Of a stretch of 64,000 nucleotides of DNA, positions 1,047-23,125 are shown piece after piece. How positions within the stretch are numbered: position 1 is the first letter of the stretch; each line of letters starts with the position of its first letter. A program made the translations under genes and the position numbers. Source of the DNA: Kangiella sp. TOML190 (lineage in GTDB: Bacteria > Pseudomonadota > Gammaproteobacteria > Enterobacterales > Kangiellaceae); contig NZ_BQYL01000001.1 in NCBI RefSeq assembly GCF_023706045.1, forward strand, positions 1,178,001-1,242,000, read 5' to 3'. Under the pieces are notes generated by a model. That model was given only the letters and a program-made list of their open reading frames with translations, was not told where the DNA came from and searched no databases.

Positions 1047-1085
1047 GGTTTAGGCTAACGCTAGAACTTCGGTTCAGAATGAGAA

Positions 1086-1109
1086 ACCCTGCTTCGGCAG
1101 GGTTTTTTT
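1086..1109 (+). terminator. Rho-independent terminator of tuf, copy 1
   Basis: ACCCTGC, TTCG loop, GCAGGGT forms a 7-bp stem closed by a stable UUCG tetraloop and is followed by a run of T. The same structure follows the second tuf copy. It isolates tuf from the DUF11 gene downstream. Confidence 0.93.
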
Positions 1110-1128: not shown

Positions 1129-1144
1129 TGTGATATATGTCACA
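1129..1144. promoter_or_regulatory. CRP-like binding site upstream of a DUF11 gene
   Basis: TGTGA-TATATG-TCACA is a perfect TGTGA-N6-TCACA palindrome with A/T-rich flanks, the consensus of cAMP receptor protein family regulators. Its centre (1136.5) is 13.5 bp before the candidate -35 at 1150. A second perfect site lies at 21568-21583 and a weaker one at 22934-22949, each before another DUF11 gene. Binding by CRP is inferred. Confidence 0.65.
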
Positions 1145-1149
1145 AAATA

Positions 1150-1178
1150 TTGCATCTTAATAATTGCTAGAGTAAATT
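1150..1178 (+). promoter_or_regulatory. Candidate sigma-70 promoter of the 899-aa DUF11 gene
   Basis: TTGCAT (1150-1155), a 17-bp spacer, and TAAATT (1173-1178). The imperfect -10 and the CRP-like site just upstream fit an activator-dependent promoter. The predicted start near 1185 leaves a leader of about 55 nt before the TTG codon. Confidence 0.5.
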
Positions 1179-1239
1179 AACAGTTGCGATCTGCAATTAG
1201 ACTATTTACTTTTTTCAAATAAATATTGAAAGGTGAACT

Positions 1240-3939
1240 TTGGGTAAAATATTAAGACATAATTGGCAGCTGAATAGTCGACAAGTTAGGAAACTAACTA
1301 TTAGTAATGTGTTTTTTTTCTTTTTACTAGCGTTTGGCTTACCTGGGATAGGCTTTGCCGCAGACCATGACAGTGATGGAGTTGCTGATCATTTGGATCT
1401 TGATGATGACAATGATGGTATTTTGGATACTGCTGAATGTACTGAAACTCTACGTCTAGATTTTGCCCAAATTGATGGCTTAAGTGCGATCCCTGCTGTC
1501 CCAGCTTCACAAAGTTTAACAATAACGGGTGCTTATACCAATGTTGTCGCGGATATAACGCTAGAGGCGGATATAGGGAGTGTTACAGCTTACGCGACAC
1601 AGGGAGCTTTTAGAGACCGGAATACTGACGGTGACCCAAGTGGTGTTGTGCTTTTACCTAATGGAATTACTAGTGCAAGTCAAGGTGCTCGTTTGTTAGT
1701 TAACTTTAATCAACCTGTTTATGACGTTTCTTTTGTTTATACGGATACTGATTCAGGGAATGGTGCTAGTAATGAAACTACACTATATGAAGGTTCTTTA
1801 TCCGGAAATGTAGTTACTCTAACTCCCAGCAATGTCACTACTATTGCTGGTCCCAGACCTAATCAGTCGGATAATTTATTTGTCGGTTCGCCACCAACGT
1901 CTAACCAAAATGTAATTCGAATTACCTATACCGATCCTATTGACAGACTTTTCGTCGAAAGCTCGATAGATAGAAACTCTCTGAATAGAGCAAATGCGCA
2001 ACGAATATTTGATATTACCTTTACCGTAGGCTGCGATAACGATAGTGATGGCCAACCCGATTATCTGGATATTGATTCTGATAATGATGGTATTCCCGAT
2101 AATATTGAGGCTCAAAGCACAGACAACTACCTTTACCCGAGTGGCACGGTTAATGCACAAGGTTTATGGAATAACTATGGTTCAGGTCTAGTCCCGGTGA
2201 ATAGCGATGGGACTGACGATGTCGATTATCTAGACGAGGATTCTGATAATGATGGTCTGCCAGACTTACTTGAAAATGGTTTTCAACCGAACACATCGGT
2301 AACAGCGGATAATGATGGCGATGGTTTGCTAGACGCTTTTGATGCAGTATCTGGAGGTAGTAATTTAGGAAGTGCATCGAATGTAGTTGATGGTATGAAT
2401 GCGGCAAATTTTGTTGGCGAGTGGGATGACTCGGATGGCGATGTTCCTAATGTTAATGGTGATGGGGCTGTGCCGCTGAATGCGGATGTGGATTTCAGGG
2501 ATAGTCGGGACGATACGCCTTACGACTTTGGTGATGCTCCCGCGAGTTATGGTGATGCTCAGCATGCGACTTTAGTCACTAATCTGTATATGGGTAGCGT
2601 GGTTCCTGACTCTGAGGCGAGCAGTCAAAACTCAACAAACGCGGATGGTGATGATGCTAATGGCGTTGATGATGAAGACGGGGTTCGTTCACCTGCAGCT
2701 TTTGTAACCGGTTATGACTTTCAAGTAGGTGTTGAAGTCGAAGGTAGCGGTTTTATTTACGCGTGGGTCGATTGGGATGGTAATGGTAGTTTTAGCGCTA
2801 CGGAAGTCATCGTTGACGGCAGTTCGGTGAATACAGGGTTGTTTAACATTACTGGCACGACTCCTGCTTCTGCAGCAGTAGGCAGTAGTTATTTGCGGGT
2901 ACGTGTTTGTAGTAGCTCGACAGAATGTTCCAGCGCAACGGGGGTTGCAACTGATGGCGAGGTTGAGGACCAATTAGTGGTTATTGGTGAAGTTTTCAGT
3001 CCCAGCTTTTCTTGCGTTAGCCCACAAACTTTAGATTGGACGACCAGTGCTTGGCCGCCGGAGAGTTTAAGCAATAGCTATACGGTAGGCTCTACTGATT
3101 TGGATTTTAGAGTAACTGATAGCTCAAATTCCTTGATTAATAACTTACCCGTCAATTTTGCCTTCTATCAGGGAGATTTGAATAGTGTTGAAGCGTCGCT
3201 ATTGCTTGCGTCGAACTTACAGGTGATTCGTGATACTAATGAAGTGGTGATTGACTTTGATGTGGGCTACCCAACAGCTGGAGTTGCTGAATTATTTTTT
3301 AAGCTGTTTGACATTGACGGTGAGATTGGAGATTTTGCTCGTCGTGAGCAGTATCAAATTAGCGGTAGCTTAAACGGGGTTGTTGTATCGCCGAGCATCA
3401 ATGTTGCGGGTAGTCAGCTAGTTTCCGGGAACACTGTGTTGGGTATTCTCCCTAGCGCTCCTACTGGGCCAAATTCAGCATCGGGAACCGTTTATGTGCA
3501 GTTCCCATCACCAGTAGACAAGGTTCAGTTGCGTTTTTCTATGGCCGATGTGAGTAACTTTTCCAGTAGCGAACCGGGCTTTGGTTTGTATGATATTCGT
3601 TTCTGTCCATTGTCAGCGCAATCAGATATAGAGGTTAGTAAGTCTGATAGTTTGACGACTTATACTCCTGGCGGTAGCGGCAGCTATACTTTAGTCGTAA
3701 CTAATAATGGGCCGCATGCGGCGTTGGGTGTTAGCATTGCTGATAGCTTACCTGCCGGAGTTACTTTATCTGGTGCTTGGAGCTGTAGTGCAACTGCGGG
3801 CTCTAGTTGCTCAGCGAGCTCTGGCGGCAGTGCGGGCGATAGCAGTTTAAGTTTAACTGCGGATATTATTAATGCAGGTATTATCACGATAACAGTACCG
3901 GTGTCTTATTCATCGACTGCTGATGACTACTCACCATGA
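1240..3939 (+). CDS. Large secreted TSP3/GEVED/DUF11 surface protein
   Basis: This 899-aa exported protein has no known function. A TTG start is chosen because AGGTGA precedes it and the reading gives a signal peptide of about 40 residues (FFFFLLAFG core, cleavage near GFAA). It continues with Ca-binding thrombospondin type 3 repeats (about 42-66 and 266-365, with DxDxDG and DNDGI motifs) and a DFGDAP...DGEVED region (about 428-580, GEVED-type). A beta-rich stretch of unknown type follows, then one DUF11 domain (about 795-899) that stops at DDYSP. No LPXTG, PEP-CTERM or IPTL-CTERM tail is visible. It lies between tuf and tRNA-Trp, normally neighbours, so it is probably an insertion. It is paralogous to the genes at 21728-25551 and 28857-30068. 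Confidence 0.85.
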   Translation: MGKILRHNWQLNSRQVRKLTISNVFFFFLLAFGLPGIGFAADHDSDGVADHLDLDDDNDGILDTAECTETLRLDFAQIDGLSAIPAVPASQSLTITGAYTNVVADITLEADIGSVTAYATQGAFRDRNTDGDPSGVVLLPNGITSASQGARLLVNFNQPVYDVSFVYTDTDSGNGASNETTLYEGSLSGNVVTLTPSNVTTIAGPRPNQSDNLFVGSPPTSNQNVIRITYTDPIDRLFVESSIDRNSLNRANAQRIFDITFTVGCDNDSDGQPDYLDIDSDNDGIPDNIEAQSTDNYLYPSGTVNAQGLWNNYGSGLVPVNSDGTDDVDYLDEDSDNDGLPDLLENGFQPNTSVTADNDGDGLLDAFDAVSGGSNLGSASNVVDGMNAANFVGEWDDSDGDVPNVNGDGAVPLNADVDFRDSRDDTPYDFGDAPASYGDAQHATLVTNLYMGSVVPDSEASSQNSTNADGDDANGVDDEDGVRSPAAFVTGYDFQVGVEVEGSGFIYAWVDWDGNGSFSATEVIVDGSSVNTGLFNITGTTPASAAVGSSYLRVRVCSSSTECSSATGVATDGEVEDQLVVIGEVFSPSFSCVSPQTLDWTTSAWPPESLSNSYTVGSTDLDFRVTDSSNSLINNLPVNFAFYQGDLNSVEASLLLASNLQVIRDTNEVVIDFDVGYPTAGVAELFFKLFDIDGEIGDFARREQYQISGSLNGVVVSPSINVAGSQLVSGNTVLGILPSAPTGPNSASGTVYVQFPSPVDKVQLRFSMADVSNFSSSEPGFGLYDIRFCPLSAQSDIEVSKSDSLTTYTPGGSGSYTLVVTNNGPHAALGVSIADSLPAGVTLSGAWSCSATAGSSCSASSGGSAGDSSLSLTADIINAGIITITVPVSYSSTADDYSP

Positions 3940-4086
3940 AGAACAGAGAATGCTGCCAGCAGTTTGTATGGATAAGAACTGTCAGCCTTAAGGGCTGTGA
4001 AGGCTGATAAAGCAGCTTAAATCTAGGGATCACCACTAATCTTGGGTTGGTGGGCGTCCTCAGGGTAAATTTATTCCAAATTACAA

Positions 4087-4124
4087 TTGCAATTCACCAA
4101 AGGCAGGGTATAATTCCCTGCCTT
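4087..4124 (+). promoter_or_regulatory. Promoter of tRNA-Trp-secE-nusG embedded in a perfect inverted repeat
   Basis: TTGCAA (4087-4092), a 16-bp spacer and a perfect TATAAT (4109-4114). The -10 sits in the loop of a 9-bp inverted repeat, AAGGCAGGG (4100-4108) and CCCTGCCTT (4116-4124), which is followed by ATTTTTG. The repeat could also be the terminator of the preceding DUF11 gene, so the element may serve both roles. The rest of 3940-4086 shows nothing I can name. Confidence 0.6.
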
Positions 4125-4166
4125 ATTTTTGCAATCCACTGTATTGCAAAGTGATTTGGGAGTTTT

Positions 4167-4242
4167 AGGCCACTAGTTCAATTGGTAGAGCGTCGGTCTC
4201 CAAAACCGAAAGTTGGGGGTTCGAGTCCCTCGTGGCCTGCCA
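4167..4242 (+). tRNA. trnW: tRNA-Trp (anticodon CCA)
   Basis: A 76-nt cloverleaf with acceptor stem AGGCCAC/GTGGCCT, discriminator G and an encoded CCA end. The anticodon arm reads GTCTCCAAAAC, giving anticodon CCA, and the T arm contains GGTTCGAGTCC. tRNA-Trp directly before secE is the standard gammaproteobacterial arrangement. The other tRNA genes often found upstream of tufB would lie outside the window. Confidence 0.97.
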
Positions 4243-4304
4243 TTTTTTTATAAAATGTGATAACAAAAATATTGGCAACTAGTTGATATTTATAGGTTTA
4301 ATGA

Positions 4305-4673
4305 ATGAGCGCACAAGCAACTGAAACACAATCAAAATTCGACAGCTTTAAATGGCTAATTGCCATCGCGGTTTTAGTCGGCGGTATTGTTGCCTTTAAT
4401 ATTTATAGCGAGCAAGCCTTGTGGATCCGCGTTGCTGCGGTACTGGGTGCCTTGATCGCGGCTTTCGCTGTGGTTATGACTACCGCAAGTGGTAAAGCAC
4501 TGTGGCAGTTTGCCAAAGAATCGCGCATTGAATTGCGTAAGGTCATTTGGCCAGGTCGTAGTGAAACCGTTCGTACGACCATTGGCGTTTTGATCATGGT
4601 AATAATTTTGGGCTTGTTCCTGTGGGGCTTTGACTCATTAGTGGTTTGGGTATTAAACCCAATCATTGGATAA
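4305..4673 (+). CDS. secE: Preprotein translocase subunit SecE
   Basis: SecE (122 aa) is an essential subunit of the inner-membrane SecYEG channel and clamps the SecY halves together. Three hydrophobic segments are visible (about 17-35, 40-60 and 95-116), as in the three-helix E. coli type. The conserved cytoplasmic amphipathic stretch RIELRKVIWPGRSE precedes the last helix. The ATG at 4305 follows AGGT. An overlapping ATG at 4301 is in another frame. It lies between tRNA-Trp and nusG. Confidence 0.97.
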   Translation: MSAQATETQSKFDSFKWLIAIAVLVGGIVAFNIYSEQALWIRVAAVLGALIAAFAVVMTTASGKALWQFAKESRIELRKVIWPGRSETVRTTIGVLIMVIILGLFLWGFDSLVVWVLNPIIG

Positions 4674-4717
4674 TCGAAAGTTAGCTATCCGTCGCGGATT
4701 TTAGTTAGGAGCTAAAA

Positions 4718-5251
4718 ATGGCATTACGTTGGTATGTAGTACAAGCCTTTTCAGGCTACGAAAACAAGGTTAAAACCATGTTGGAAGAGCGTATCCAACT
4801 GGCTGGCCTAGAAGAGTTTTTCGGCGAAGTGCTGGTTCCAACTGAAGAAGTGGTGGAAATGCGTGCTGGGCAAAAACGTCGTAGCGAGCGCAAATTCTTT
4901 CCAGGCTACGTTTTAGTAAGCATGGAAATGAACGAAGAAACTTGGCAAGTGGTGCGTAATACACCGCGCGTTATGGGCTTTATTGGCGGCACTTCGGATC
5001 GTCCGGCGCCAATCTCGCAACGTGAAGCGGATACTATCTTGAATCGTATTGAAGATAGCGGCGATAAGCCGAAGCCGAAAACTTTGTTCGAGCCAGGTGA
5101 AATGGTTCGTGTTATTGATGGCCCATTTGCAGATTTTAATGGCGTGGTAGAGACCGTAAACTACGAAAAGAGCCGTTTACAAGTGTCAGTCTCTATCTTT
5201 GGCCGCTCAACTCCGGTAGAATTGGAGTTTAGCCAAGTAGAAAAGGGCTAA
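4718..5251 (+). CDS. nusG: Transcription termination/antitermination factor NusG
   Basis: NusG (177 aa) binds RNA polymerase and links it to Rho or to ribosomal protein S10. The N-terminal NGN domain ([23 protein letters not shown]) occupies about 1-115, and the C-terminal KOW domain starts near [14 protein letters not shown]. Length matches the family. A GGAGCT ribosome-binding site precedes the ATG. It is co-transcribed with secE, 44 nt upstream. Confidence 0.98.
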
Positions 5252-5365
5252 AAAAGGCTAATTTCTCGTCAAGCGAGCGCTAGCTGGTTTAGAAAATTAG
5301 AATAACAGCATTTCTCTGTAAAACGATAGTTTAAACGGGGAAGTGCTTTTATGACTTTGTGAAAC

Positions 5366-5399
5366 GGGGAGCTAGACGTGATGTCTAGCGTTTGAACCC
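5366..5399 (+). promoter_or_regulatory. Stem-loop in the rplK leader, candidate L1 autoregulatory site
   Basis: GCTAGAC (5371-5377), loop GTGAT, GTCTAGC (5383-5389) is a perfect 7-bp hairpin, flanked by GGGG on the left and ACCC on the right, 26 nt before the rplK start. In enterobacteria L1 represses rplKA by binding a structured site at this position. The equivalence here rests on position and structure only. Confidence 0.5.
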
Positions 5400-5415
5400 A
5401 CTAAAGAGGTGTAAC

Positions 5416-5844
5416 ATGGCTAAGAAAGTCGAAGCTTATATTAAGCTACAAGTAGCAGCTGGTTCTGCTAACCCTTCGCCACCCGTTGGTCCTGCATTAG
5501 GTCAACACGGTGTCAACATCATGGAGTTCTGTAAAGCATTCAACGCGGAAACAGACAAAGTAGAAAAAGGTTTGCCTATTCCAGTAGTCATTACTGTGTA
5601 TAACGACCGTAGTTTTACTTTTATTACTAAAACTCCACCAGCATCAACCTTGATCAAAAAAGCTTTGAATCTGAAATCAGGTTCTGGCGAGCCTAACAAG
5701 AAAAAAGTTGGCAAGATCACTCGCGCCCAGTTGGAAGAAATCGCCAACATGAAAGAGCCTGATTTGACGGCTGCTGATATGGACGCTGCGGTAAACACAA
5801 TTGCTGGCACAGCACGCTCAATGGGCGTTGACGTAGAGGGTTAA
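5416..5844 (+). CDS. rplK: Large subunit ribosomal protein L11
   Basis: L11 (142 aa) builds the GTPase-associated centre with L10/L12 and is needed for RelA activation by stalled ribosomes. The N-terminal [19 protein letters not shown] region (binding site of thiostrepton-type drugs) and the C-terminal rRNA-binding domain are intact. The ATG at 5416 is preferred over a start 24 nt upstream because it follows AGAGGTG and gives the exact family length. rplA follows after 4 nt. Confidence 0.97.
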
Positions 5845-5848
5845 TATC

Positions 5849-6544
5849 ATGGCTAAAACATCTAAGCGCATGCGCGCGATTAGCGAAAAAGTTGCAGGAC
5901 GTACTAACTTACCTGTAACTGAAGCAATCGATTTAATTAAAGAAGTTTCCAGCGTTAAGTTCAGCGAGTCAGTCGAAGTGGCTGTGAACTTAGGCGTTGA
6001 TCCACGTAAATCGGATCAGGTGGTTCGTGGTGCTACGGTTCTTCCAAACGGTACTGGTAAAGACGTTCGTGTTGCCGTGTTCACCAACAATGTTGACGCT
6101 GCTAAAGAAGCGGGTGCTGACGTTGTAGGTATGGATGACCTAGCAGAAGAAGTTAAAAAAGGAAACTTGGATTTTGACGTAGTGATCGCTAGCCCAGACG
6201 CCATGCGTGTGGTTGGTCAACTAGGTCAAATCTTAGGCCCTCGCGGTCTTATGCCAAACCCTAAGGTTGGTACTGTAACTCCAGACGTAGCAACGGCGGT
6301 GAGAAACGCTAAAGCAGGTCAGGTGCAATACCGTACTGACAAGAACGGTATCGTTCACGCTGGTATTGGTAAAGTAGATTTCGGCACTGATGCTTTGGTT
6401 GAAAACTTAAGTGCTCTATTAAAAGCTCTTCAGAAAGGTAAACCAAGCTCAGCAAAAGGCACTTATTTGAAGAAGATTTCTTTGTCTTCGACTATGGGGC
6501 CTGGTCTTTCAGTAGATCAATCTACTTTAGATCTTAAAGACTAA
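5849..6544 (+). CDS. rplA: Large subunit ribosomal protein L1
   Basis: L1 (231 aa) forms the mobile stalk at the E site and represses its own operon by binding the mRNA leader. Family motifs are visible ([21 protein letters not shown] and the [13 protein letters not shown] segment), and length is close to the E. coli protein. It is transcribed with rplK. No clear terminator follows, so transcription may continue into the rplJ leader. Confidence 0.97.
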
Positions 6545-7182
6545 TTTGCAGTTGCTAAATTTTTCAATTGCGCTGTTGAAGTCTGCATAAAATTTGCTCC
6601 GATTACCAATAAGGTAACCTACGCATTTGGTTCAGGCTTCGCCTAGCACTTGAGAAAATTTCTCGAACTGCAAGGGTAATATAGAACAGCAAGAAGTTCT
6701 TTAAAAAATCTTGAGAAATTTTTTGCTATTGATTAGCAAAACTATTTAGCAAAAAAATTGATGAGTATGAGGCAAATTCATTCGAGATGACGCTGGTTAT
6801 CATTTAGATAATCAAGGAAATCGAGAAGGAATTTAACAATGTAATCGACAATTTTAATCTAAATAGAAGGGCTTTGGGTTTCCTGGGTTGTGAAATGCTG
6901 TTCAGGGAACCGTCAAAGACCGTAGGCACTGACGAATCGGGTGTTTACTCAAGCTCTTTTTGAGCGATAACAGTAAAGCTCCTTTATGAGGAGTACGACG
7001 AGTTGGTTTAATCAAGAACCTTGGTTCTGAACCTACGCAGATGGTGAAACCTGATGATGTATTTTATACAGAGTCGTTCACCGCAACTCAAAGGATAAGG
7101 TTAGGCGAAAGCCAAAGCTTTATCGAAATGTAACTCAAGTGGAAGTGAACAACTGAAACTTGAATAAACTGGAGGTGAACTA
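6545..7182 (+). promoter_or_regulatory. 638-nt leader of rplJL with L10 leader kink-turn region
   Basis: No gene is present here. GGTGAA (7043-7048) pairs with TTCACC (7077-7082), and CTGATGA just inside the stem resembles the kink-turn of the L10 leader, where the L10-(L12)4 complex represses rplJL. The preceding CCTACGCAGATGG resembles the enterobacterial L10 leader. Smaller hairpins occur at 6948-6964 (CTCAA/TTGAG) and 6980-6994 (CTCCT/AGGAG). GTTCTTTAAAAAATC at 6696-6710 resembles a boxA antitermination element. I could not fix the promoter. Confidence 0.65.
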
Positions 7183-7710
7183 GTGGCACTTGGACTTGAA
7201 GGCAAAAAAGCCATTGTTAGCGAAGTAAATGACATAGCTAAAGATGCGCTTTCAGCCGTAGTAGCTGAGTACCGCGGTTTAACAGTTGAAGACATGACCG
7301 CTCTACGTGTTAAAGCACGTGAAGCCAATGTCTATGTTCGTGTTGTGCGTAATACGCTCGCACGTCGCGCTGTTGAAGATACCGAGTTCGCTTGTATGCA
7401 AGAAGCATTAACTGGTCCATTAGTTTATGCATTCTCTATCGATGCGCCTGGCGCAGCGGCACGTCTTTTCAAAGACTTTGCTAAAGAGAATGACAAGCTA
7501 GCGGTAACTGGTATCGCCATTGGTGGTGAATTACACGGTCCTGAGCGTCTTGACGCTGTGGCTGCGTTACCAACCAAAGACGAAGCAATTGCATCCTTGA
7601 TGATGGTTATGAATGGACCTATCACGAAACTTGCTCGTACTTTGAACGAAGTACCAAGCAAGATCACTCGTGTTATGGCGGCTGTTCGCGATCAGAAAGA
7701 AGCGGCTTAG
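7183..7710 (+). CDS. rplJ: Large subunit ribosomal protein L10
   Basis: L10 (175 aa) anchors L12 dimers to the ribosome and, as the L10-L12 complex, represses its own leader. The N-terminal rRNA-binding domain (AVVAEYRGLTVEDMTALR, VRNTLARRAVE) and the C-terminal helix for L12 binding are present. The GTG start follows GGAGGTGAA. Length is slightly above E. coli (165 aa). rplL follows after 84 nt. Confidence 0.97.
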   Translation: MALGLEGKKAIVSEVNDIAKDALSAVVAEYRGLTVEDMTALRVKAREANVYVRVVRNTLARRAVEDTEFACMQEALTGPLVYAFSIDAPGAAARLFKDFAKENDKLAVTGIAIGGELHGPERLDAVAALPTKDEAIASLMMVMNGPITKLARTLNEVPSKITRVMAAVRDQKEAA

Positions 7711-7794
7711 TAGTTTCAATACTAATTTTATTAGTACTGTTAACCGTAGTTAATTTTTATTTATATTTTTTAAGAGAACCCAGGAGAGACTAAA

Positions 7795-8172
7795 ATGGCT
7801 CTATCTAAAGACGATTTATTGAACGCTATCGCTGAAATGAGCGTTATGGAAGTAGTGGAACTTGTTGAAGCTATGGAAGAAAAATTCGGTGTTTCTGCTG
7901 CTGCAGCTGTAGCAGTAGCTGGCCCTGCAGCTGGCGGCGACGCTGGCGCTGCTGCTGAGCAAACTGAGTTTGACGTAGTAATGAAAAGCTTCGGCGGTAA
8001 CAAAGTAGCTGTAATTAAAGCTATCCGCGGCATCACTGGTCTTGGCTTGAAAGAAGCTAAAGACATGGTTGAAGGCGCTCCTGTTGCTGTTAAAGAAGGC
8101 GTTGAGAAAGCAGAAGCTGAAGACGTTAAAAAGCAATTGGAAGAAGCTGGCGCTGAAGTTGAAGTTAAGTAA
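7795..8172 (+). CDS. rplL: Large subunit ribosomal protein L7/L12
   Basis: L7/L12 (125 aa) is the multicopy acidic stalk protein that recruits translational GTPases. The N-terminal dimerisation part ([19 protein letters not shown]), an Ala/Gly-rich hinge (about 35-58) and the C-terminal factor-binding domain ([17 protein letters not shown]) are in order. AGGAGAG precedes the ATG. It needs higher expression than its neighbours, consistent with the attenuator-like hairpin after it. Confidence 0.98.
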
Positions 8173-8218
8173 TAACGATTTATTACTTGCTCACAACTAA
8201 GTAGCAAATAGCTCAAAT

Positions 8219-8247
8219 GGCTGGTGACTTTTGTCACCGGCCTTTTT
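8219..8247 (+). terminator. Terminator/attenuator between rplL and rpoB
   Basis: GGCTGGTGAC (8219-8228), a TTTT loop, GTCACCGGCC (8233-8242), then TTTTT. The stem is 10 bp with one G-T pair. Enterobacteria have a partial terminator here that lowers rpoBC expression relative to rplL. The same role is likely because no strong rpoB promoter is evident in 8248-8394. Confidence 0.88.
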
Positions 8248-8394
8248 GCCGTTAAACGGCAGCCTAAGTTTTGTTTAGCAGACTTGTTTAACAGAACAGG
8301 GCAAGATGATTAGATTTGAGGTGAGCTCTCGATAATAATCTAGCCATCAAACGAATTCAAAATTGGTCAAAAGTTAGTGAACCGAGGAACCCAA

Positions 8395-11300
8395 ATGGCA
8401 TATTCTTACACTGAGAAAAAGCGAATCCGCAAGGATTTCGGTCGTCGTTCAAATACTCTCGATGTGCCTTATCTGTTGGCAATCCAGAAAGATTCATACC
8501 GTGAATTTATTGAGCAAAAGCAAGGCTCTGATGAATCGGGTTTGGATGCAGCCTTTAAATCGATTTTCCCAATTGAAAGTTATTCTGGCAACGCAGCTCT
8601 AGAATTTGTGAGCTACCGTTTAGGCGAGCCAGTTTTCAATGTTAAAGAATGTCAGATCCGTGGCGTAACTTACGCAGCGCCGCTTCGCGTGACTATTCGC
8701 TTAGTGATCTATGATAAAGATTCTAAGACGAAGAAAGTCAAAGACATCCGCGAACAAGAAGTTTATATGGGCGAATTACCATTGATGACAGACAATGGTA
8801 CTTTCGTTATTAACGGTACTGAGCGTGTTATCGTATCGCAACTACACCGTTCACCTGGTGTGTTCTTCGACTCAGATCGTGGTAAAACCCACAGCTCAGG
8901 TAAGTTGTTATATCAAGCACGGGTGATTCCTTACCGTGGTTCATGGTTAGATTTTGAATTCGATCCAAAAGACATGCTTTACGTGCGAATTGACCGTCGT
9001 CGTAAATTGCCATCGTCTATTATCTTGCGTGCATTAGAATATAGCACTCAAGACATGTTGGATATTTTCTTCGAGCGAGACACCTTCTTTGTGACTAAGA
9101 AAGGTGATATCCAATTAGAATTAATTCCATCACGTTTACGTGGTGAGACTGCCACTTTTGATATTAAAGCAAAATCAAAAGTCGTAGTAGAAGAAGGTCG
9201 CCGTATCACGCCTCGTCACATTAAAGCGTTAGAAACTGCTGGTGTGAAGAAGCTAGATGTACCATCGGACTACATTTTAGGCCGTGCTTTAGGTTCAGAT
9301 CTGATCGACAAAGAGTCAGGTGAAATCGTTGCTGAAGCAAATGCTGAAATTACCGAAGAATTATTAGCGACCATTATTGAAGCAGGCGTGACCGAAATCC
9401 CAACGCTTTACACTAACGATTTGGACCACGGTCCTTACATGTCGGATACTTTGCGTATTGATCCTTCAACCACTGCTTTAGAAGCAAAAGTTGAAATTTA
9501 CCGCATGATGCGTCCGGGCGAGCCACCAACACAAGAAGCCGCTGAAGGTTTGTTTGATAACTTATTCTTCAATGGTGAGCGTTATGACTTGTCGCGCGTT
9601 GGTCGTATGAAATTCAACCGTCGCGTGGGACGTGATGAGATTGAAGGCCAAGGCACTTTATCCAACGACGATATTATCGACGTGATGAAAACCTTGATCG
9701 ATATTCGTAACGGTAACGGTACCGTGGATGACATCGATCACTTGGGTAACCGTCGTATTCGCTCTGTTGGTGAGATGGCGGAAAACCAATTCCGTGTCGG
9801 TTTAGTTCGTGTTGAACGTGCTGTTAAAGAGCGTTTATCGCAAGCCGAGAGTGAGAACTTGATGCCGCAAGATTTGATCAACGCCAAGCCAGTATCGGCG
9901 GCGGTGAAAGAATTCTTTGGTTCAAGCCAATTGTCTCAATTTATGGATCAAAACAATCCATTATCGGAAATTACCCACAAGCGTCGTGTTTCTGCACTAG
10001 GACCTGGCGGTCTTACGCGTGAGCGCGCGGGCTTTGAGGTTCGTGACGTACACCCAACCCACTATGGCCGTGTTTGTCCGATTGAAACGCCGGAAGGTCC
10101 AAACATTGGTTTGATCAACTCGCTATCTTGTTACGCGCGTACCAACGAATACGGTTTCCTAGAAACTCCGTACCGCCGTGTGGTTAAAGGTAAGGCGACG
10201 GACGTGGTCGATTATTTATCAGCGATCGACGAAGGTAAGTTCGTTATCGCCCAGGCCAACGCTGAGTTAGATAAAAAAGGTAACTTCGTAGAAGAGTTAG
10301 TACCTTCGCGTCAATTAGGCGAATTTATTTTAGCGACACCGGATCAAGTAGAATATATGGACGTTTCGCCGCAGCAGATCGTATCGGTGGCAGCGTCTAT
10401 GATCCCATTCCTTGAACACGATGATGCGAACCGTGCTTTGATGGGCTCGAACATGCAACGACAAGCGGTTCCAACCTTACGTGCTGAAAAACCATTAGTG
10501 GGCACTGGTATGGAGCGCACTGTGGCTGTTGATTCTGGTGTGGTGGTTGCTGCAAAACGTGGCGGTGTGGTGGATCAAGTCGATGCCAGCCGTGTAGTGA
10601 TTCGGGTTAATGAAGAAGAGGTTGGCGAGAACGATTCTGGTGTTGATATTTATAACTTCACCAAGTACACCCGTTCTAACCAAAATACTTGTATTAACCA
10701 ACGTCCAATCGTTAAACAAGGCGACGTGATAGCGCGTGGCGATGTGTTAGCTGATGGTCCTTCAACTGACTTGGGTGAGTTGGCGTTAGGTCAAAATATG
10801 CGTGTAGCCTTCATGCCTTGGAATGGTTATAACTTTGAGGATTCGATCCTTATTTCTGAAAACGTTGTTCAGGAAGATCGCTTCACCAGTATCCATATTC
10901 AAGAGCTAACCTGTGTATCGCGTGATACTAAGTTAGGCCCTGAAGAAATCACAGCGGATATTCCAAACGTTGGCGAAAGCGCATTAAGCAAACTTGACGA
11001 GTCAGGTATTGTTTACATTGGCGCTGAGGTTAAGCCCGGCGACATCCTAGTGGGTAAAGTTACCCCTAAGGGCGAAACCCAATTAACTCCAGAAGAAAAG
11101 CTATTGAGAGCTATCTTTGGTGAGAAAGCTTCTGACGTTAAAGATACTTCTTTACGCGTTGGCACTTCAACCTTCGGTACGGTCATTGACGTGCAAGTCT
11201 TTACTCGTGACGGCGTTGAAAAAGATGCTCGTGCTAAAGATATCGAAAACGAAGAAGTGGCTCGCGCCAAGAAAGATATTAATGATGAATTCCGTATCTT

Positions 11301-12465: not shown

Positions 12466-12484
12466 TACTTCACCTGCTGCGTTC

Positions 12485-12513
12485 TTTATCGTAATAAACA
12501 GCGCAGCAAATGA
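12485..12513 (+). other. Hairpin between rpoB and rpoC
   Basis: In the 111-nt gap, a GCTGCG arm pairs with CGCAGC, and TTTAT/ATAAA pairs inside it. There is no T run, so it is unlikely to terminate. It may mark mRNA processing or protect the transcript. The function is unknown. Confidence 0.4.
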
Positions 12514-12576
12514 GACTCCTTAAAGTGTTGTAAGACAATTTAAGGAAAAGGTTTAACTCCTACTAGGAGAGAGATT

Positions 12577-15500: not shown

Positions 15501-16797
15501 GATTGTATCGCGTTCAGCTGAATTGAACGTAATCGATGAGTTCGGTCGTGAACGTGAGCGTTATAAAGTTCCTTATGGTGCGGTATTGAGCGCGCAAGAA
15601 GGCGCTAAAGCCACCGGTGGTGACATTGTTGCCAACTGGGATCCGCATACTCACCCAATCATTGCTGAGCTTGGCGGTAAGATCCAATTCGTTGACATGC
15701 TTGAAGGTGTCAACATTGAGCGTCAAACGGATGAATTAACCGGTTTGAGCTCAATCGTAATTACGGAAAACAAGCAGCGTACAGGTAAAGGCTCTGACGT
15801 TAAACCAGCGATTAAGTTGGTAGACAAGAAGGGTAAAGAACTGCATATTCCTGGAACTGATGTTCCGGCAGTTTATTTCTTACCAACCAACGCTATCGTT
15901 AATTTAGAAGATGGCTCAGAAGTGAACATCGGTGATGCGATTGCGCGTATCCCACAAGAAAGCTCGAAGACCAAGGATATTACCGGTGGTCTACCTCGAG
16001 TTGCTGACTTGTTTGAAGCTCGTAAACCAAAAGAGTCTGCAATCTTGGCAGAAATCTCAGGTACTGTGAGCTTTGGTAAAGAAACTAAAGGTAAGCGTCG
16101 TCTCGTTATCACTCCTCAAGACGGTGGCGATGCTTATGAAGAGTTGATCCCGAAATGGCGTCACCTAAACGTGTTTGAAGGTGAGAAAGTTGAAAAAGGT
16201 GAGGTGGTATCAGACGGTGCTGACAACCCACATGACATCTTACGCTTGAAAGGGATCACGGAACTTGCTCGTTACATTGTGAACGAAGTGCAAGAGGTTT
16301 ATCGTCTGCAAGGTGTTGGCATTAACGATAAGCACATCGAGGTTGTGATCCGCCAGATGTTGCGTAAGTGTATCGTATCTAACCCAGGTGATTCGCGCTT
16401 GTTAAGAGGCGATCAGATGGAAGTGGTGCGAGTGTTAGAAGAGAACGATAAGTTAATTGAAGCAGGTAAAGATCCGGTAGAGTTCGAGCGGGTGCTAATG
16501 GGTATCACCAAAGCATCGCTGGCTACTGAATCCTTTATCTCGGCGGCATCTTTCCAAGAAACGACCCGTGTACTTACCGAGGCGGCTGTCAACGGTAAAA
16601 TGGACGATTTACGTGGCTTGAAAGAAAACGTGATTGTGGGTCGCTTGATCCCGGCAGGTACCGGTTTAAGCTATCACCAAGAGCGTCGCCAAAAGCGTGC
16701 TGAAGTGCTAGTGGAAGACGCGGGCCCATCAGCCGACGAAGTAGAACAGGCCTTATCGGAAGAGCTAAGCTCAATCGAAGAGGCCACTGAGGAATAA
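12577..16797 (+). CDS. rpoC: RNA polymerase beta' subunit
   Basis: RpoC (1406 aa, close to E. coli's 1407) carries the catalytic centre. Visible motifs are the N-terminal zinc site (CLCGKYK...CEKCG, about 70-88), the Mg-binding NADFDGDQ loop (about 458-465), trigger-loop sequence near [15 protein letters not shown], and the second zinc site ([13 protein letters not shown], about 889-901). The GTG start follows AGGAGAG. It is co-transcribed with rpoB. Confidence 0.99.
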
Positions 16798-16835
16798 AGC
16801 AAAATCAAGCGGTTAGATGCTCAATTTCTGATCGC

Positions 16836-16873
16836 TTGACTTATCGCCCTGACCTCATTAGAATAGCGCGCCC
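16836..16873 (+). promoter_or_regulatory. Promoter of the str operon (rpsL)
   Basis: TTGACT (16836-16841), a 17-bp spacer, TAGAAT (16859-16864), then the GC-rich discriminator AGCGCGCCC. The discriminator fits stringent control. Four r-protein promoters in this window share the CGCGYCC core. An inverted repeat, TCAAGCG/CGCTTGA, overlaps the -35 and could be a remnant of an rpoC terminator. Confidence 0.8.
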
Positions 16874-16909
16874 TAGACCTAGGACACTAGTTTTTAGTGC
16901 TTAGGGCGC
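16868..16909 (+). other. Leader hairpin before rpsL
   Basis: GCGCCCTA (16868-16875) pairs with TAGGGCGC (16902-16909), and CACT (16885-16888) pairs with AGTG (16896-16899) around a TTTTT loop. It would form at the very 5' end of the str transcript. No U tract follows. It may stabilise the mRNA or tune expression. Confidence 0.5.
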
Positions 16910-16971
16910 ATGAATTAGCGTAATTATTTGTAACGACTAACCGTTACAACGAATTTATAGAGAAAGAATTA

Positions 16972-17343
16972 ATGGCTACTATTAATCAGCTAGTAAGAAA
17001 ACCTCGCGTAAAGCAGGTTAAGAAAACTAACGTACCAGCGCTAGAAGCTTGCCCGCAGAAGCGTGGCGTTTGTACTCGTGTTTACACGACTACTCCAAAA
17101 AAACCAAACTCGGCACTTCGTAAAGTGGCTCGTGTACGTTTAACCAACGGTTTTGAAGTGACTTCATACATCGGTGGTGAAGGTCACAATCTTCAAGAGC
17201 ACAGCGTTGTCATGATCCGTGGCGGTCGTGTAAAGGATTTGCCAGGTGTTCGTTATCACTGTGTTCGTGGTACTTTAGACTTAGCTGGCGTCAAAGATCG
17301 TAAGCAAGGTCGTTCTAAGTACGGTGCTAAGCGCCCTAAATAA
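16972..17343 (+). CDS. rpsL: Small subunit ribosomal protein S12
   Basis: S12 (123 aa) sits at the decoding centre and affects accuracy. The [16 protein letters not shown] loop and the [10 protein letters not shown] loop hold the residues changed in streptomycin-resistant or -dependent mutants, and all look wild type. The VKDLPG Asp is the site of beta-methylthiolation in relatives. It is the first gene of the str operon, with a long leader. Confidence 0.98.
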
Positions 17344-17510
17344 GTTTTATAGCTTCGTTCTTTGATTGATTGCTTCGGTAACTTGTTGGCTAGAGCCAAC
17401 TTCGCCTCACAATCACTCAAATAACTCGCTCTAAAAACTTATTGGTTTTAAACAAACAGTTTGAAACCCGCTCTTGAAAGAATAGAGCATTACAATTTGA
17501 GATATAGAGC

Positions 17511-17535
17511 AATAGTCGGTTTCATGCCGGCTATT
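17511..17535 (+). other. Hairpin in the rpsL-rpsG spacer, candidate S7 regulatory region
   Basis: AATAGTCGG (17511-17519), a 7-nt loop, CCGGCTATT (17527-17535) gives a 9-bp stem with one G-T pair. In E. coli, S7 binds the rpsL-rpsG intercistronic RNA to repress translation. The spacer here (275 nt to the rpsG start) is much longer. The equivalence is inferred from position only. Confidence 0.4.
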
Positions 17536-17546
17536 TCACTATGTGA

Positions 17547-18092
<546 letters not shown>

Positions 18093-18107
18093 TCCAAGGA
18101 GATTATT

Positions 18108-20204
18108 GTGGCACGTAAAACCCCTATTAAAAGATACCGTAACTTGGGTATCGTTGCGCACGTTGACGCGGGTAAAACCACGACAACTGAGCGTATTTTG
18201 TTCTACACGGGTCTTTCTCATAAGATCGGTGAGGTACACGATGGCGCTGCAACTATGGACTGGATGGAGCAGGAGCAGGAGCGTGGTATTACTATTACCT
18301 CGGCTGCGACTACGACTTTCTGGCGTGGTATGGAAGCGCAATTTGACGAGCACCGAATCAACATCATCGACACCCCTGGTCACGTTGACTTTACGATTGA
18401 AGTAGAGCGTTCATTGCGTGTATTGGACGGTGCGGTAGTAGTACTTTGTGGTTCATCTGGTGTGCAACCACAAACTGAAACCGTATGGCGTCAAGCGAAT
18501 AAATACGAAGTTCCTCGTATGGTATTCGTTAACAAGATGGACCGTGCTGGTGCTGATTTCGATATGGTTAAAGAGCAATTGAAAGAACGTTTGAATGCAA
18601 ACGTGGTTCCAATGCAAATGACCATTGGCGCTGAAGACGAGTTCAAAGGCGTGGTTGATCTAATCAAAATGAAAGCGATTCTTTGGAATGAAGCGGATCA
18701 AGGCATGACCTTCGAATACGCTGACGTTCCAGCTGACTTAGCCGATCGTTGTGCGGAAATGCGCGAGTATATGGTTGAAGCAGCTGCTGAAGCTTCTGAA
18801 GAGTTGATGGAAAAGTACCTTGAAGAGATGGATCTTTCTGAAGAAGACATCAAAGCAGGTATTCGTGCGCGTACTTTGGCGAACGAAATTATCCCTATGT
18901 TCGGTGGTTCTGCCTTTAAAAATAAAGGCGTTCAAGCAGTACTAGACGCGGTTATCGAATATATGCCTTCGCCTGAAGAAGTTAAAGCGATTGAAGGTGT
19001 GGTTGACGCTGATGCTGAAGAAACTGAAACTCGTGAAGCTGACGATGATGCACCATTTGCTGCCTTGGCTTTTAAAATCGCAACTGACCCATTCGTGGGT
19101 ACTTTAACCTTCTTCCGTGTTTACTCGGGTGTCATCAACTCTGGTGATCACGTAATGAACTCGGTTAAAGGTAAGAAAGAGCGTATCGGTCGTATCGTAC
19201 AGATGCACGCGAATTCTCGTGAAGAGATCAAAGAAGTTCGTGCAGGCGATATCGCGGCAGGCGTTGGTCTTAAAGATGTAACCACGGGTGATACTTTGTG
19301 TGATTTGGATAACCAAATCATTCTAGAGCGTATGGAATTCCCAGATCCAGTAATCTCGGTAGCGGTTGAGCCAAAAACTAAAGCCGACCAAGAAAAGATG
19401 GGTATCGCCTTAGGCAAGTTGGCGCAGGAAGATCCGTCTTTCCGCGTACAAACCGATGAAGAGTCAGGCCAAACCATTATCTCTGGTATGGGCGAGCTGC
19501 ACTTAGACATTCTTGTTGACCGTATGCGTCGTGAGTTTAAAGTTGAAGCTAACATTGGTGCGCCGCAAGTTGCTTACCGTGAGTCGATTCGCAACACGGT
19601 TGAAGTCGAAGGTAAATTCGTACGTCAATCAGGTGGTCGCGGTCAGTATGGTCACGTTTGGGTTAAACTTGAGCCACAAGAAGCGGGCGCTGGTTTTGAA
19701 TTCGTTAATGAAATCGTTGGTGGTGTAGTTCCTCGTGAATACATCGGCGCGGTTGCTAAAGGTATCGAAGAACAGTTGGAAAATGGTATCTTGGCGGGTT
19801 ACCCAGTATTAGACGTCAAAGCGACTTTATATGATGGTTCTTACCACGATGTAGACTCGAACGAAATGGCGTTTAAAATCGCGGGTAGCATGGCGGTGAA
19901 AAATGCAGCTGCAACTGCTAATCCAGCTTTACTTGAGCCAATGATGAAAGTTGAAGTTGTAACTCCTGAAGATTACATGGGTGACGTTATGGGTGACCTT
20001 AACCGTCGTCGCGGCATGGTAAAAGGCATGGACGAAAATCCATCGGGTAAAGTTATCAATGCTGAAGTACCACTTTCAGAAATGTTTGGTTACGCAACTG
20101 ATATGCGTTCTTTGTCGCAAGGTCGTGCAAGTTTCACTATGGAATTCTCGCACTACGCCGAAGCCCCAATGAACATTGCAGAAGCGATAATGAATAAAGG
20201 TTAA
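18108..20204 (+). CDS. fusA: Elongation factor G
   Basis: EF-G (698 aa) is the GTPase for ribosomal translocation and, with RRF, recycling. G motifs are intact: AHVDAGKTT (P-loop, about 17-25), DTPGHVDF and NKMD. Domain IV ([15 protein letters not shown]) and domain V ([21 protein letters not shown]) follow. The GTG start follows AAGGAG. It sits in the str operon between rpsG and tuf. Confidence 0.98.
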
Positions 20205-20270
20205 GCTGTGGCTTAACCTTGTTAAACAAAATTTAATAAGTTTTTTAGAGAATCTAGAGGTAATAGGAAG

Positions 20271-21461
20271 ATGGCTAAAGAAAAATTTGAACGAAATAAA
20301 CCGCACGTTAATGTTGGTACGATTGGCCACGTTGACCACGGTAAAACGACTTTGACGGCAGCGATATGTACGGTATTGTCAAAGGTATACGGCGGTGACG
20401 CCCGTGCTTTTGACGAGATTGACAATGCTCCAGAAGAGAAAGAGCGTGGTATCACGATTTCGACGTCACACGTTGAGTACGAAACTCCTAATCGTCACTA
20501 TGCGCACGTAGACTGCCCAGGTCACGCGGATTACGTTAAGAACATGATTACTGGTGCTGCTCAGATGGACGGCGCGATTTTAGTATGTTCAGCTGCGGAC
20601 GGCCCGATGCCACAAACCCGTGAGCACATCTTGTTGTCACGTCAGGTTGGTGTACCTCGCATCATTGTTTTCTTGAACAAGTGCGACATGGTTGACGACG
20701 AAGAGTTGTTAGAGTTGGTTGAAATGGAAATCGTTGAGCTTCTTGACCAATACGAATTCCCAGGTGACGAAACGCCCATCATCCGTGGTTCAGCGTTGAA
20801 AGCGCTTGAAGGCGACGAAGGCGACATCGGCGAGAAAGCGATTATCGCTTTAGGCGAAGCTTTGGATACTTACATTCCGGAGCCAGAGCGTGTAACAGAC
20901 AAGCCATTCTTGTTGCCGATTGAAGACGTATTCTCCATCTCAGGTCGTGGTACGGTAGTAACCGGCCGTGTTGAGACGGGTATCGTTAAAGTAGGCGAAG
21001 AGATTGAAATCGTTGGTATCAAAGACACGACTAAGACTACGGTTACCGGCGTTGAGATGTTCCGTAAGCTTCTAGACCAAGGTGAAGCTGGCGATAACGT
21101 GGGTGTATTGTTACGTGGTACTAAGCGTGACGAAGTAGAGCGTGGTCAAGTATTGGCGCACGTAGGTACTATTACGCCGCACACTAAGTTCGAGTCAGAA
21201 GTGTACGTATTGTCTAAAGATGAAGGTGGTCGTCATACGCCATTCTTCAAAGGCTACCGTCCACAGTTCTACTTCCGTACCACTGACGTGACTGGTGCTG
21301 TTGAGTTACCAGAAGGCGTCGAGATGGTCATGCCTGGCGATAACATCAAGATGGTGGTTGAGTTAATCGCACCAATCGCGATGGACGAAGGCTTACGTTT
21401 TGCTATCCGTGAAGGTGGCCGTACGGTAGGCGCTGGTGTTGTTGCTAAAATCTTTGAGTAA
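20271..21461 (+). CDS. tuf: Elongation factor Tu, complete copy
   Basis: A 396-aa EF-Tu with P-loop GHVDHGKT (19-26), switch [14 protein letters not shown] and NKCD, followed by domains 2 and 3. It is the last gene of the str operon (tufA position). The 3' 1046 nt of coding sequence are identical to the partial copy at the window start. Normally rpsJ would follow, but an 8.5-kb accessory block starts just after its terminator. Confidence 0.99.
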
Positions 21462-21527
21462 GGTTTAGGCTAACGCTAGAACTTCGGTTCAGAATGAGAA
21501 ACCCTGCTTCGGCAGGGTTTTTTTATG
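20416..21527. repeat. Direct repeat of the tuf gene and its terminator, copy 2
   Basis: Matches 1-1112, covering tuf from codon 49 through stop, trailer and terminator, then diverges at 21528. Crossing-over between the two direct copies would delete or duplicate the roughly 20 kb between them, which holds essential genes. Gene conversion is therefore the tolerated outcome. Confidence 0.9.
21501..21524 (+). terminator. Rho-independent terminator of tuf, copy 2
   Basis: ACCCTGC, TTCG, GCAGGGT and a T run, identical to the element after the first tuf copy. It ends the str operon and separates it from the DUF11 gene. Confidence 0.93.
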
Positions 21528-21567
21528 GCTTATGGTGTTTTGGTGAGTGATTGGCTTTGTAAGTTAG

Positions 21568-21583
21568 TGTGAAGTGACTCACA
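21568..21583. promoter_or_regulatory. CRP-like site upstream of a second DUF11 gene
   Basis: TGTGA-AGTGAC-TCACA is a perfect TGTGA-N6-TCACA palindrome centred at 21575.5, 14.5 bp before the candidate -35. The spacer bases differ from the site at 1129-1144, so this is not part of the copied tuf repeat. That argues for selection on the half-sites. Confidence 0.65.
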
Positions 21584-21589
21584 AAAAAC

Positions 21590-21618
21590 TTGAAATTGTA
21601 CAATTTTTGAGCTAAATT
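21590..21618 (+). promoter_or_regulatory. Candidate promoter of the frameshifted DUF11 gene
   Basis: TTGAAA (21590-21595), a 17-bp spacer and TAAATT (21613-21618). The -10 hexamer is the same as in the promoter at 1150-1178. A leader of about 100 nt follows, with no structure I can name. Confidence 0.5.
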
Positions 21619-21727
21619 GAGTTTATAAAGACTTTGTCCGTTTTTTTTACAAGTCAAAAGTCGGATGCCGTTTAAGTGCTTATAGACTTAGAAGAAGCAC
21701 AAATTCTATGACGGCTAGGGGTAAAAA

Positions 21728-22736
21728 TTGAATACATTTGCGCAGCCAATATGGGAAGAAATGGATTTCTGCCCTAAAAAACGTTCAGTGCTCTGGGTTA
21801 TAGCTATTGGCTGTATCTCAACCAATACGTCTGTTTTTGCTGGTCCAGGCGGGCCAACTGCTAATTGTGCTTATGTGCAAAACTTTGACGCTGGTGATCC
21901 GATATACGACTCAACACCTTACCTATACGCTGAATAATACAACGACTTCTAATGGCCAGCATGTGGCGGAGAAAATAAGACCTGGTGTCAATAATCCAGA
22001 CATCGAAACTGATGCTAGTGGTAGCGGTAAATTCTTGTTTAATAATACCGATGGGGGAAATTCAGTAGGCGAGGCTTGGGGTAGTCCAGGCGCTGCTCCC
22101 ATCACTGTTACCCCCAATACCCTATACCGTTTGTCTTTTAAGATGTCGAATTTTAATGGTTTTAGACCACAGTTGATAACTGCCCAGATCAACGGCACAA
22201 CTTTAGCAACGGGTATTACCAATAGCGCCCCTTATCTTGATATAAACGATTTACTAACCGAGTGGGAAACCTTCAACGTTAACTGGTTATCTGGAAGTGC
22301 CACCACGACAGCAGATATATCTTTAATACAAACTCGAACGAATGGCGGAGGCATTGACTGGGGATTTGATGAGATATGGTTATGTCCCATTCGCCCCGAT
22401 ATTGAGGTGACTAAAGATGATACGGCAGCCAACTATACGCCTGGTGGCACAGGAAGCTACACCATCCAAATCAGCAATACCGATGCAACGCCGCCGGATC
22501 AAGGTGTAGAGAGTGTTCAAATCAACGATAGCCTGCCGGCAGGTCTGACTTTATCTGGAGCCTGGTCATGTTCGGTAACGACAGCGGGTGCAGGTGCGGT
22601 GACCACTGCCTGCGGTACATCAAGTGGCGGCGCTGTGGGTGGTAGTGCGGTGAATTTATCGGTGGATTTAGCCGAGGGCGGCGTAATTACCATTACCGTG
22701 CCTATCCAGTACTCAAACGATCCAGCTCAATACTAA
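21728..22736 (+). pseudogene. Secreted DUF11 protein gene with a +1 frameshift
   Basis: The first frame encodes an exported N-terminus (TTG at 21728, or ATG at 21761, signal ending near SVFA) and GPGGPTANCAYVQNFD, then stops at 21935-21937. The next frame continues a protein closely similar to the 3' half of the neighbour at 23126-25551. It holds a beta-sandwich-like region (GSGKFLF, GEAWGSPG, IDWGFDEIWLC) and a C-terminal DUF11 domain ending in DPAQY. Alignment to the neighbour's LYYSLN places one extra base in 21911-21918. It could be a decayed gene, a sequencing error or recoding. If repaired, it would be about 335 aa. Confidence 0.75.
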
Positions 22737-23125
22737 AAATAAATTCATGAGCTACATTACAACTTTGATCGAAACCTTTATGTGGCGGCGTTTGTTAACA
22801 GGTCTATCTTCTTAATAAGCCTTGTCTGGTCAGATATCTCTTTCAACGGCGTTAGCCGCTAGTATTAATTTCAAATGCGATTAAATAGTTGCTCGGCAAA
22901 TCAAGCCTGTTACCATTTTTAGTAATTTTTTTCTGAGGCACAGATCACATTTTCTTGCAATTCCTCTTTGCTGGTAGTAGATTGGTCTACTGATAAGGGC
23001 GGCCCCGGAAGGCGTGTTATGAAACGGAGGGGCTATTTAAGACTAATATTCCCATTATTCTAAAAATTTTTAAACAAAGGACTGTGGTTTTGTGTTTATA
23101 AATACTAGATTAATGGGGTAGTAGT
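22737..23125 (+). promoter_or_regulatory. 389-nt gap with a CRP-like site, promoter and structured leader
   Basis: No gene is visible. TGAGG-CACAGA-TCACA (22934-22949) is a CRP-like site with a degenerate left half, centred 13.5 bp before TTGCAA (22955-22960). A 17-bp spacer and TAGATT (22978-22983) follow. The geometry matches the other two DUF11 promoters. The leader of about 135 nt contains GCCCC...GGGGC pairing near 23001-23033, not recognised as a known riboswitch. 22737-22933 shows nothing clear. Confidence 0.5.

Follow-up and report, generated by a model that had tools for sequence, protein, structure and literature searches.

CRP-type palindromes upstream of DUF11-type surface-protein genes in Kangiella

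The DUF11-type genes of Kangiella sp. TOML190 raise the question of whether surface proteins of this bacterium are controlled by CRP and, if so, from which kind of promoter. According to the original prediction, three such genes share an architecture in which a CRP-like palindrome immediately precedes the -35 and -10 hexamers, and may form a small cAMP-CRP regulon for surface proteins, located behind housekeeping terminators. Here we analyse the stretch of 64,000 nucleotides on which these genes are found (the window; positions 1,178,001 to 1,242,000 of contig NZ_BQYL01000001.1), the rest of the host genome, which is 2.45 Mb long and consists of the one contig that contains the window, and genomes of the same genus. 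The presence of CRP sites before some DUF11 genes is well supported, and the palindrome, the promoter and the gene family are considered in turn below.

The predicted promoters of genes A, B and C

The window contains two tuf genes. The first copy is followed by gene A (1240..3939, + strand), which encodes a secreted-type protein of 899 aa with GEVED and C-terminal DUF11 domains, and then by tRNA-Trp. Behind the second copy the order is gene B (21728..22736, +), gene C (23126..25551, +), a DUF1800 gene, a DUF1501 gene, gene D (28857..30068, +), which encodes another DUF11 protein, and a series of ribosomal-protein genes; the names of the tuf and ribosomal-protein genes are those that we take them to have from their sequences. 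All named relatives of the DUF1501 protein come from Kangiella (seven loci, 61-82% identity). Measured against the curated cut-off of the DUF11 family (PF01345, 24.6 bits), the match of gene A is clear (E 3.4e-13) and gene D also lies above the cut-off. Gene B is borderline, with 24.5 bits in one search and 27.9 in another, and gene C stays under the cut-off with 23.3 bits and gave no match at E<=0.001 in a second search, so that the three DUF11 genes originally announced comprise one clear member, one borderline member and one that falls short. Genes B and C are each split into two open pieces that differ in frame (gene B, 21728-21937 and 21807-22736; gene C, 23126-23764 and 23740-25551), whereas gene A, the DUF1800 gene and the DUF1501 gene have uninterrupted frames. 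These broken frames, and those of the giant DUF11 gene described below, may reflect either decay or assembly error.

The palindromes TGTGATATATGTCACA upstream of gene A (1129..1144, +) and TGTGAAGTGACTCACA upstream of gene B (21568..21583, +) are perfect matches to TGTGA-N6-TCACA, while the CRP-like site TGAGGCACAGATCACA upstream of gene C (22934..22949, +) is degenerate, with two mismatches. Each is followed by a predicted promoter: TTGCAT-N17-TAAATT for gene A (1150..1178, +; -35 at 1150, -10 at 1173), TTGAAA-N17-TAAATT for gene B (21590..21618, +; -35 at 21590, -10 at 21613) and TTGCAA-N17-TAGATT for gene C (22955..22983, +; -35 at 22955, -10 at 22978). The centre of the palindrome lies 13.5, 14.5 and 13.5 bp from the -35 hexamer of genes A, B and C, respectively, which would place it at -48.5, -49.5 and -48.5 relative to the predicted starts. 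On re-reading, the letters, the coordinates, the distances from centre to -35 and the N17 spacers claimed for the three sites were all found to be correct. The marked promoters are modest, with 7, 9 and 8 of 12 consensus bases by hand count; a scan at 9 of 12 listed the promoter of gene B and not those of genes A and C, and its yield showed no excess over shuffles. Other weak -10-like hexamers are also present, e.g. TAGAGT in the gene A promoter.

The first tuf gene ends in an intrinsic terminator (1081..1109, +), whose hairpin folds with -16.8 kcal/mol, and the second in an identical hairpin (21496..21524, +); both are visible by folding and missing from the listing of a consensus terminator scan. 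The location behind a housekeeping terminator thus holds for genes A and B and fails for gene C, which is located behind gene B. The sequences of the two tuf copies are alike through the terminator and diverge immediately 3' of the hairpin, and the inner bases and flanks of the palindromes differ as well, which bears out the view that the similarity of the promoters is not due to recent copying; copying was accordingly rejected.

Eight DUF11-type genes of the genome have their stop codon directly at the end of the DUF11 domain (positions 3939, 22736, 25551 and 30068 of the window, and L037:1438, L038:5105 and L039:5671 and 6708 in other loci of our collection). In seven of them the protein ends with a C-terminal tail like YSSDPADY, and the eighth is a few residues shorter; this is possibly a common C-terminal feature of DUF11-type genes.

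Enrichment of the sites and their recurrence in the genus

Perfect TGTGA-N6-TCACA palindromes are enriched: this genome has 10 of them, whereas its reversed control gives 1, and the corresponding numbers for 20 genomes of the genus are 96 and 20. In contrast, sites with up to two mismatches are about as frequent in the window as expected (29 vs 27.26, a number reached by 40 of 100 shuffles), so the site at 22934 does not stand above chance on its own. The possibility that equally many sites occur at random has therefore been answered differently for the perfect palindromes and for the degenerate one. After merging of identical contexts, 95 perfect palindromes were analysed with gene calls made by a crude longest-ORF method, according to which 27 of them lie inside ORFs.

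The sites are also not distributed at random with respect to DUF11-type genes. Three of the 10 palindromes of this genome lie up to 350 bp upstream of such genes (P 2.4e-4, with nine DUF11 genes and a conservative assumption), i.e. sites facing DUF11-type genes are commoner than predicted by chance, and these genes are over-represented among the perfect sites of this genome. The exact layout seen in the window (gap of 5-6, TTG, N17, TANNNT) appears in 0.36, 0.34 and 0.12% of dinucleotide shuffles of the three sites, figures that do not constitute a test, since these sites were originally chosen because they fit. We therefore also counted a composite pattern (palindrome, 3-6 nt, TTG, 19-21 nt, TANNNT), whose lower gap limit of 3 was fixed only after the gap of 3 in the giant gene had been seen. 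It has seven matches in the 20 genomes, four of them facing DUF11-type genes, vs none for the reversed control: three matches here (genes A, B and the giant gene), two in the relative G016, one of which faces a tuf-linked DUF11 gene, and one each in G014 and G005. The G014 match precedes an ORF of 120 aa followed by a Big_9 protein without DUF11, and was rejected as an additional DUF11 case. Counted by orientation, the pattern is present at 4 of the 5 DUF11-facing sites vs 3 of the 185 others (Fisher p 3e-6). Once the two pattern-defining sites are removed, it is still present at two of three DUF11-facing sites (p 0.0017), and in both comparisons the orthologues are not independent.

The third perfect site before a DUF11-type gene of this genome, TGTGACTCATGTCACA, is located outside the window (C1:2360-2375, - strand), 256 bp before an ORF that leaves the contig at its start. 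It is followed by AAT, TTGACT, 17 nt and TAAGTT, and with its gap of 3 it matches the broad pattern only (2.7% of shuffles). The ORF piece at the contig start contains DUF7933, SpaA_2 and Calx-beta domains and has no PF01345 match; assuming a circular chromosome, we infer that it continues at the opposite end of the contig into a long run of DUF11 repeats (G000:C1:2440000-2454686), which is broken into open pieces that differ in frame. The two perfect sites of the window and this third one are very probably genuine CRP sites. Altogether a CRP-type site precedes four of the nine DUF11 genes if the site at 22934 is counted, and three if it is not. The other five, gene D among them, have no site with up to two mismatches in the 420 bp upstream, and a single architecture for all DUF11 genes was therefore rejected.

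For 17 relatives of the genus we read the DNA behind tuf2, for 16 that behind tuf1, and compared both with the places of DUF11 genes. A DUF11 gene with a site was found behind tuf2 in one relative (G016) and behind tuf1 in none, and no relative other than G016 has any DUF11 gene at these places. With 93% tuf identity over 242 bases, G016 belongs to the closest genomes, and its tuf-linked gene is preceded by the perfect palindrome TGTGAATTAGTTCACA, a gap of 5, TTGAGG, 17 nt and TATAGT, which corresponds to the exact layout (0.24% of shuffles) with the same gap and spacer as here and a better -10. The layout thus recurs outside the window. In five further relatives (G001, G005, G007, G015 and G018) the place behind tuf2 is taken by another large gene of the secreted type, and the first 3000 bases there contain no site of at most one mismatch.

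Matches to the giant gene were found in 11 other genomes. Besides the three promoters of the prediction, four cases were tested for the layout: the tuf-linked gene of G016 and the giant genes of G016, of this genome and of G008. The G016 orthologue has a one-mismatch site at the aligned position, followed by a gap of 5, TTGTAA, N17 and TATTAT, again the exact layout (0.58%), and in the upstream alignment G011 and G013 have two-mismatch sites at the position of the site. The G008 orthologue has a perfect site at a different aligned position and lacks the layout. The remaining orthologues have, at best, sites with one or two mismatches elsewhere, of which those with two are expected by chance at such a length. 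Seven genomes (L126-L129, L136-L138) also have about 45 bp of conserved non-coding sequence (TATCAATAACATATAG...AAATATAATG-like) upstream of their giant genes.

Candidate regulator, predicted distance and possible sign of the effect

The genome with these CRP-type sites also encodes a CRP/Vfr orthologue, which scores 351 bits with NF008732 (cut-off 266). Among solved structures it is closest to Vfr, with an identical CSREMVGRVLK stretch, and E. coli CRP is also among its PDB matches. Searches with PF00325 and PF00027 yielded two proteins of the CRP/FNR family, this orthologue and one that reads VETISRLFK, a helix that we presume to be of the FNR type. A search of the genome for class I adenylate cyclases gave no match. 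The only match to class III nucleotide cyclases is fused to pentapeptide repeats (L041:1519-3309, -); from its domain, this protein could be a source of cAMP, though an unusual one.

The regulon is broader than a small set of surface-protein genes. Sites do precede some DUF11 genes, but perfect sites in the genus also precede genes for S8 and M6 proteases, transglutaminase-like 7TM proteins, GGDEF proteins, CsrA, VgrG-like proteins and PilM, and several of these groups have them at a different distance. A class II hexamer, which would put the site at -40.5, is present in 7 of 7 transglutaminase-like 7TM genes, in 11 of 14 grouped and 3 of 3 ungrouped pilM genes, and in 5 of 5 orthologous S8 protease genes, with the -10-like hexamer 20 nt on (a sixth protein of the BLAST cluster is without it). 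In many genomes a perfect palindrome with the class II hexamer lies within a long ORF, presumably that of PBP1A, close to its start and about 280 bp before the divergent pilM (near position 1501 in L005, L106, L109, L153, L157 and others).

At none of the five perfect sites facing DUF11-type genes does a -10-like hexamer follow after 19-21 nt, the distance expected for class II. Four of the five carry the composite pattern, with predicted centres at -46.5, -48.5, -49.5 and -48.5, which is not the class I position either (about -61.5 or further upstream). Similar distances are found elsewhere: both csrA genes have a -10-like hexamer at -49.5, and in the GGDEF group (n=4) the hexamer is at -48.5 in two genes, at -49.5 in one and at neither in one. 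In an earlier test none of 300 shuffles reached the observed number at -48.5; its null was too narrow, as orthologues were shuffled independently. Over 40 families, 4.83 are observed vs 1.22 expected (p 0.007, family-wise 0.21), and without DUF11 the values are p 0.027 and 0.55 family-wise, so the excess is nominal only and a general -48.5 class proven by statistics was rejected. After distance and length filters, the gene-facing orientations numbered 83 in the independent-shuffle test and 87 in the family-wise one; the 103 orientations that face no gene gave no match at -48.5 and 7 at -40.5, with a mean of 2.5 per position.

As a centre near -48.5 is neither of the standard activator positions, activation cannot be assumed. 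On balance, we favour the reading that the two perfect palindromes of the window, and with more doubt the degenerate one, serve as operators of the CRP/Vfr orthologue in DUF11 promoters, with modest activation as a first guess. Bound at about -48.5, immediately upstream of a promoter complete with -35 and -10, CRP-cAMP would alter the use of this promoter by RNA polymerase; the sites, their enrichment, the orthologue and the recurrence in one close relative are observed, and binding, start sites and sign are inferred. If the guess is right, the surface proteins would rise with cAMP, as would the secreted proteases that carry sites. Against this explanation stand the very weak activation by CRP near -50 at sigma-70 promoters of E. 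coli, the modest promoters, the five of nine genes without sites, the single relative with a tuf-linked DUF11 gene and site, the nominal excess at -48.5, the absence of the layout in G008, the chance level of the gene C site, the broken frames of genes B and C and the negative search for class I cyclases.

The sign could be the opposite, with CRP bound but repressing or limiting, so that DUF11 proteins are made at low cAMP. We consider this rather less probable, even though the complete -35 and -10, the lack of a class II -10 at all five sites and the -35-like TTG at four of them suit repression, since a dimer abutting the -35 would leave the alpha C-terminal domains no room; such a clash has been invoked, in the part of the study seen, for the poor activity near -50 in E. 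coli, where CRP activates sigma-70 promoters very weakly (PMC2859248). On the other hand, one set of rules, as given in an excerpt of PMC5772556, finds activation for 31 of 32 E. coli sites between -70.5 and -28.5 without AACG. Ordinary class II activation, with the marked -10 wrong and the true start nearer the site, would agree with the -40.5 hexamer kept by the S8 protease, transglutaminase-like and pilM genes of the genus and with the alternative weak hexamers such as that of gene A. This is unlikely given that no DUF11-facing perfect site has a hexamer at that distance; also against it, E. coli promoters with CRP at -40.5 are scattered across activation, repression and no effect in the section of PMC6301791 consulted.

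Equally unlikely, in our estimate, is that the sites have no regulatory effect on DUF11 genes, being due to chance, relics or inconsequential binding. This would apply best to gene C, whose site is at chance level, and it agrees with the fraction of perfect palindromes inside ORFs and with the fact that tuf-linked DUF11 genes are common to few relatives, but not with the genus-wide enrichment of perfect sites and the recurrence of the layout in G016. That another regulator uses the palindrome we regard as very improbable: the link of site to CRP is one of sequence similarity only, and the supply of cAMP is uncertain as a class I cyclase was not found, but the only other CRP/FNR-family protein obtained was that with VETISRLFK.

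A second palindrome and the meaning of the sites

Several CRP palindromes of the genus are accompanied by a second palindrome, TNATGCAWATTTGCATNA, which also stands before giant DUF11-type genes and genes of the GGDEF group (L001:1452-1469; also in L094, L112, L163, L179, L214, L128, L129 and L137). Up to 60 nt behind CRP palindromes in 190 orientations, it is found seven times with up to two mismatches vs 0.075 expected from shuffles, 13 times vs 0.7 with up to three and 23 times vs 4.2 with up to four; several of the cases are orthologues, so that not all are independent. Its position is at the -10 or immediately 3' of it in the giant gene of this genome (perfect), in three genes of the GGDEF group and in the tuf-linked DUF11 gene of G016 (three mismatches); in L003, L010 and L179 it is nearer the CRP site. 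Of the 12 giant genes, 11, that of this genome included, have it within 700 nt upstream with up to four mismatches, as a raw count. With up to two mismatches there are 20 places in 876 kb of partly overlapping DNA, several of them before genes of DUF11 or other surface proteins, vs none in 10 shuffles of the window; as the 876 kb are loci chosen for DUF11 and CRP, this is not a genome-wide rate. Its sole place in the window is 32410, on both strands (2.49 matches expected), away from genes A-C, and it was therefore rejected as an element of their promoters. The sequence ATGCAAATTTGCAT gave no match in the literature searched. Two places far apart, L003:1501-1550 and L010:1501-1550, have TGTGAACTCTATCACA in common, with the second palindrome next to it; what we take to be a TIR-like gene adjoins one of them, and a presumably recombinase-like gene the other.

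Tentatively, these observations may point to a two-operator promoter class of the genus, in which CRP near -48.5 is combined with a sigma-70-like promoter that includes a -35 and with TNATGCAWATTTGCATNA at or just past the -10. If so, giant DUF11-type adhesins would be co-controlled with a diguanylate cyclase for lifestyle switching, and cAMP and a second regulator would jointly set the cell surface, genes A-C carrying the CRP half alone.

The palindrome is the same as in gammaproteobacterial CRP/Vfr regulons, and other genes of the genus have it at the class II distance. The DUF11-type sites, however, differ from the class I (-61.5) and class II (-41.5) promoters of these regulons in their predicted centres at -46.5 to -49.5 and in the -35 of their own. 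They resemble the E. coli aer promoter, where -49.5 is the optimum, in that the site is at a distance intermediate between those of class I and class II, with a complete promoter just downstream; however, in the portion of PMC2859248 that describes it, aer is read by sigma-28, whereas the hexamers here are sigma-70-like by appearance. Control of type 1 fimbriae by cAMP-CRP (PMC2636892, in part) is alike in that CRP governs a surface structure, although fimbriae are not DUF11 proteins. A role of DUF11 as type 11 secretion cargo was rejected, as in the text of PMC12282271 that was available DUF11 appears once and the other matches are to DUF1194. Among open-licence PMC papers we found none on DUF11 with CRP, on Kangiella with DUF11, or on CRP or regulons in Kangiella.

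If the favoured reading is true, uncharacterised DUF11 surface proteins would come under a known nutrient signal. Besides, the genus would offer natural sigma-70-like promoters with CRP at a position considered nearly inactive, on which the spacing rule could be tested outside E. coli.
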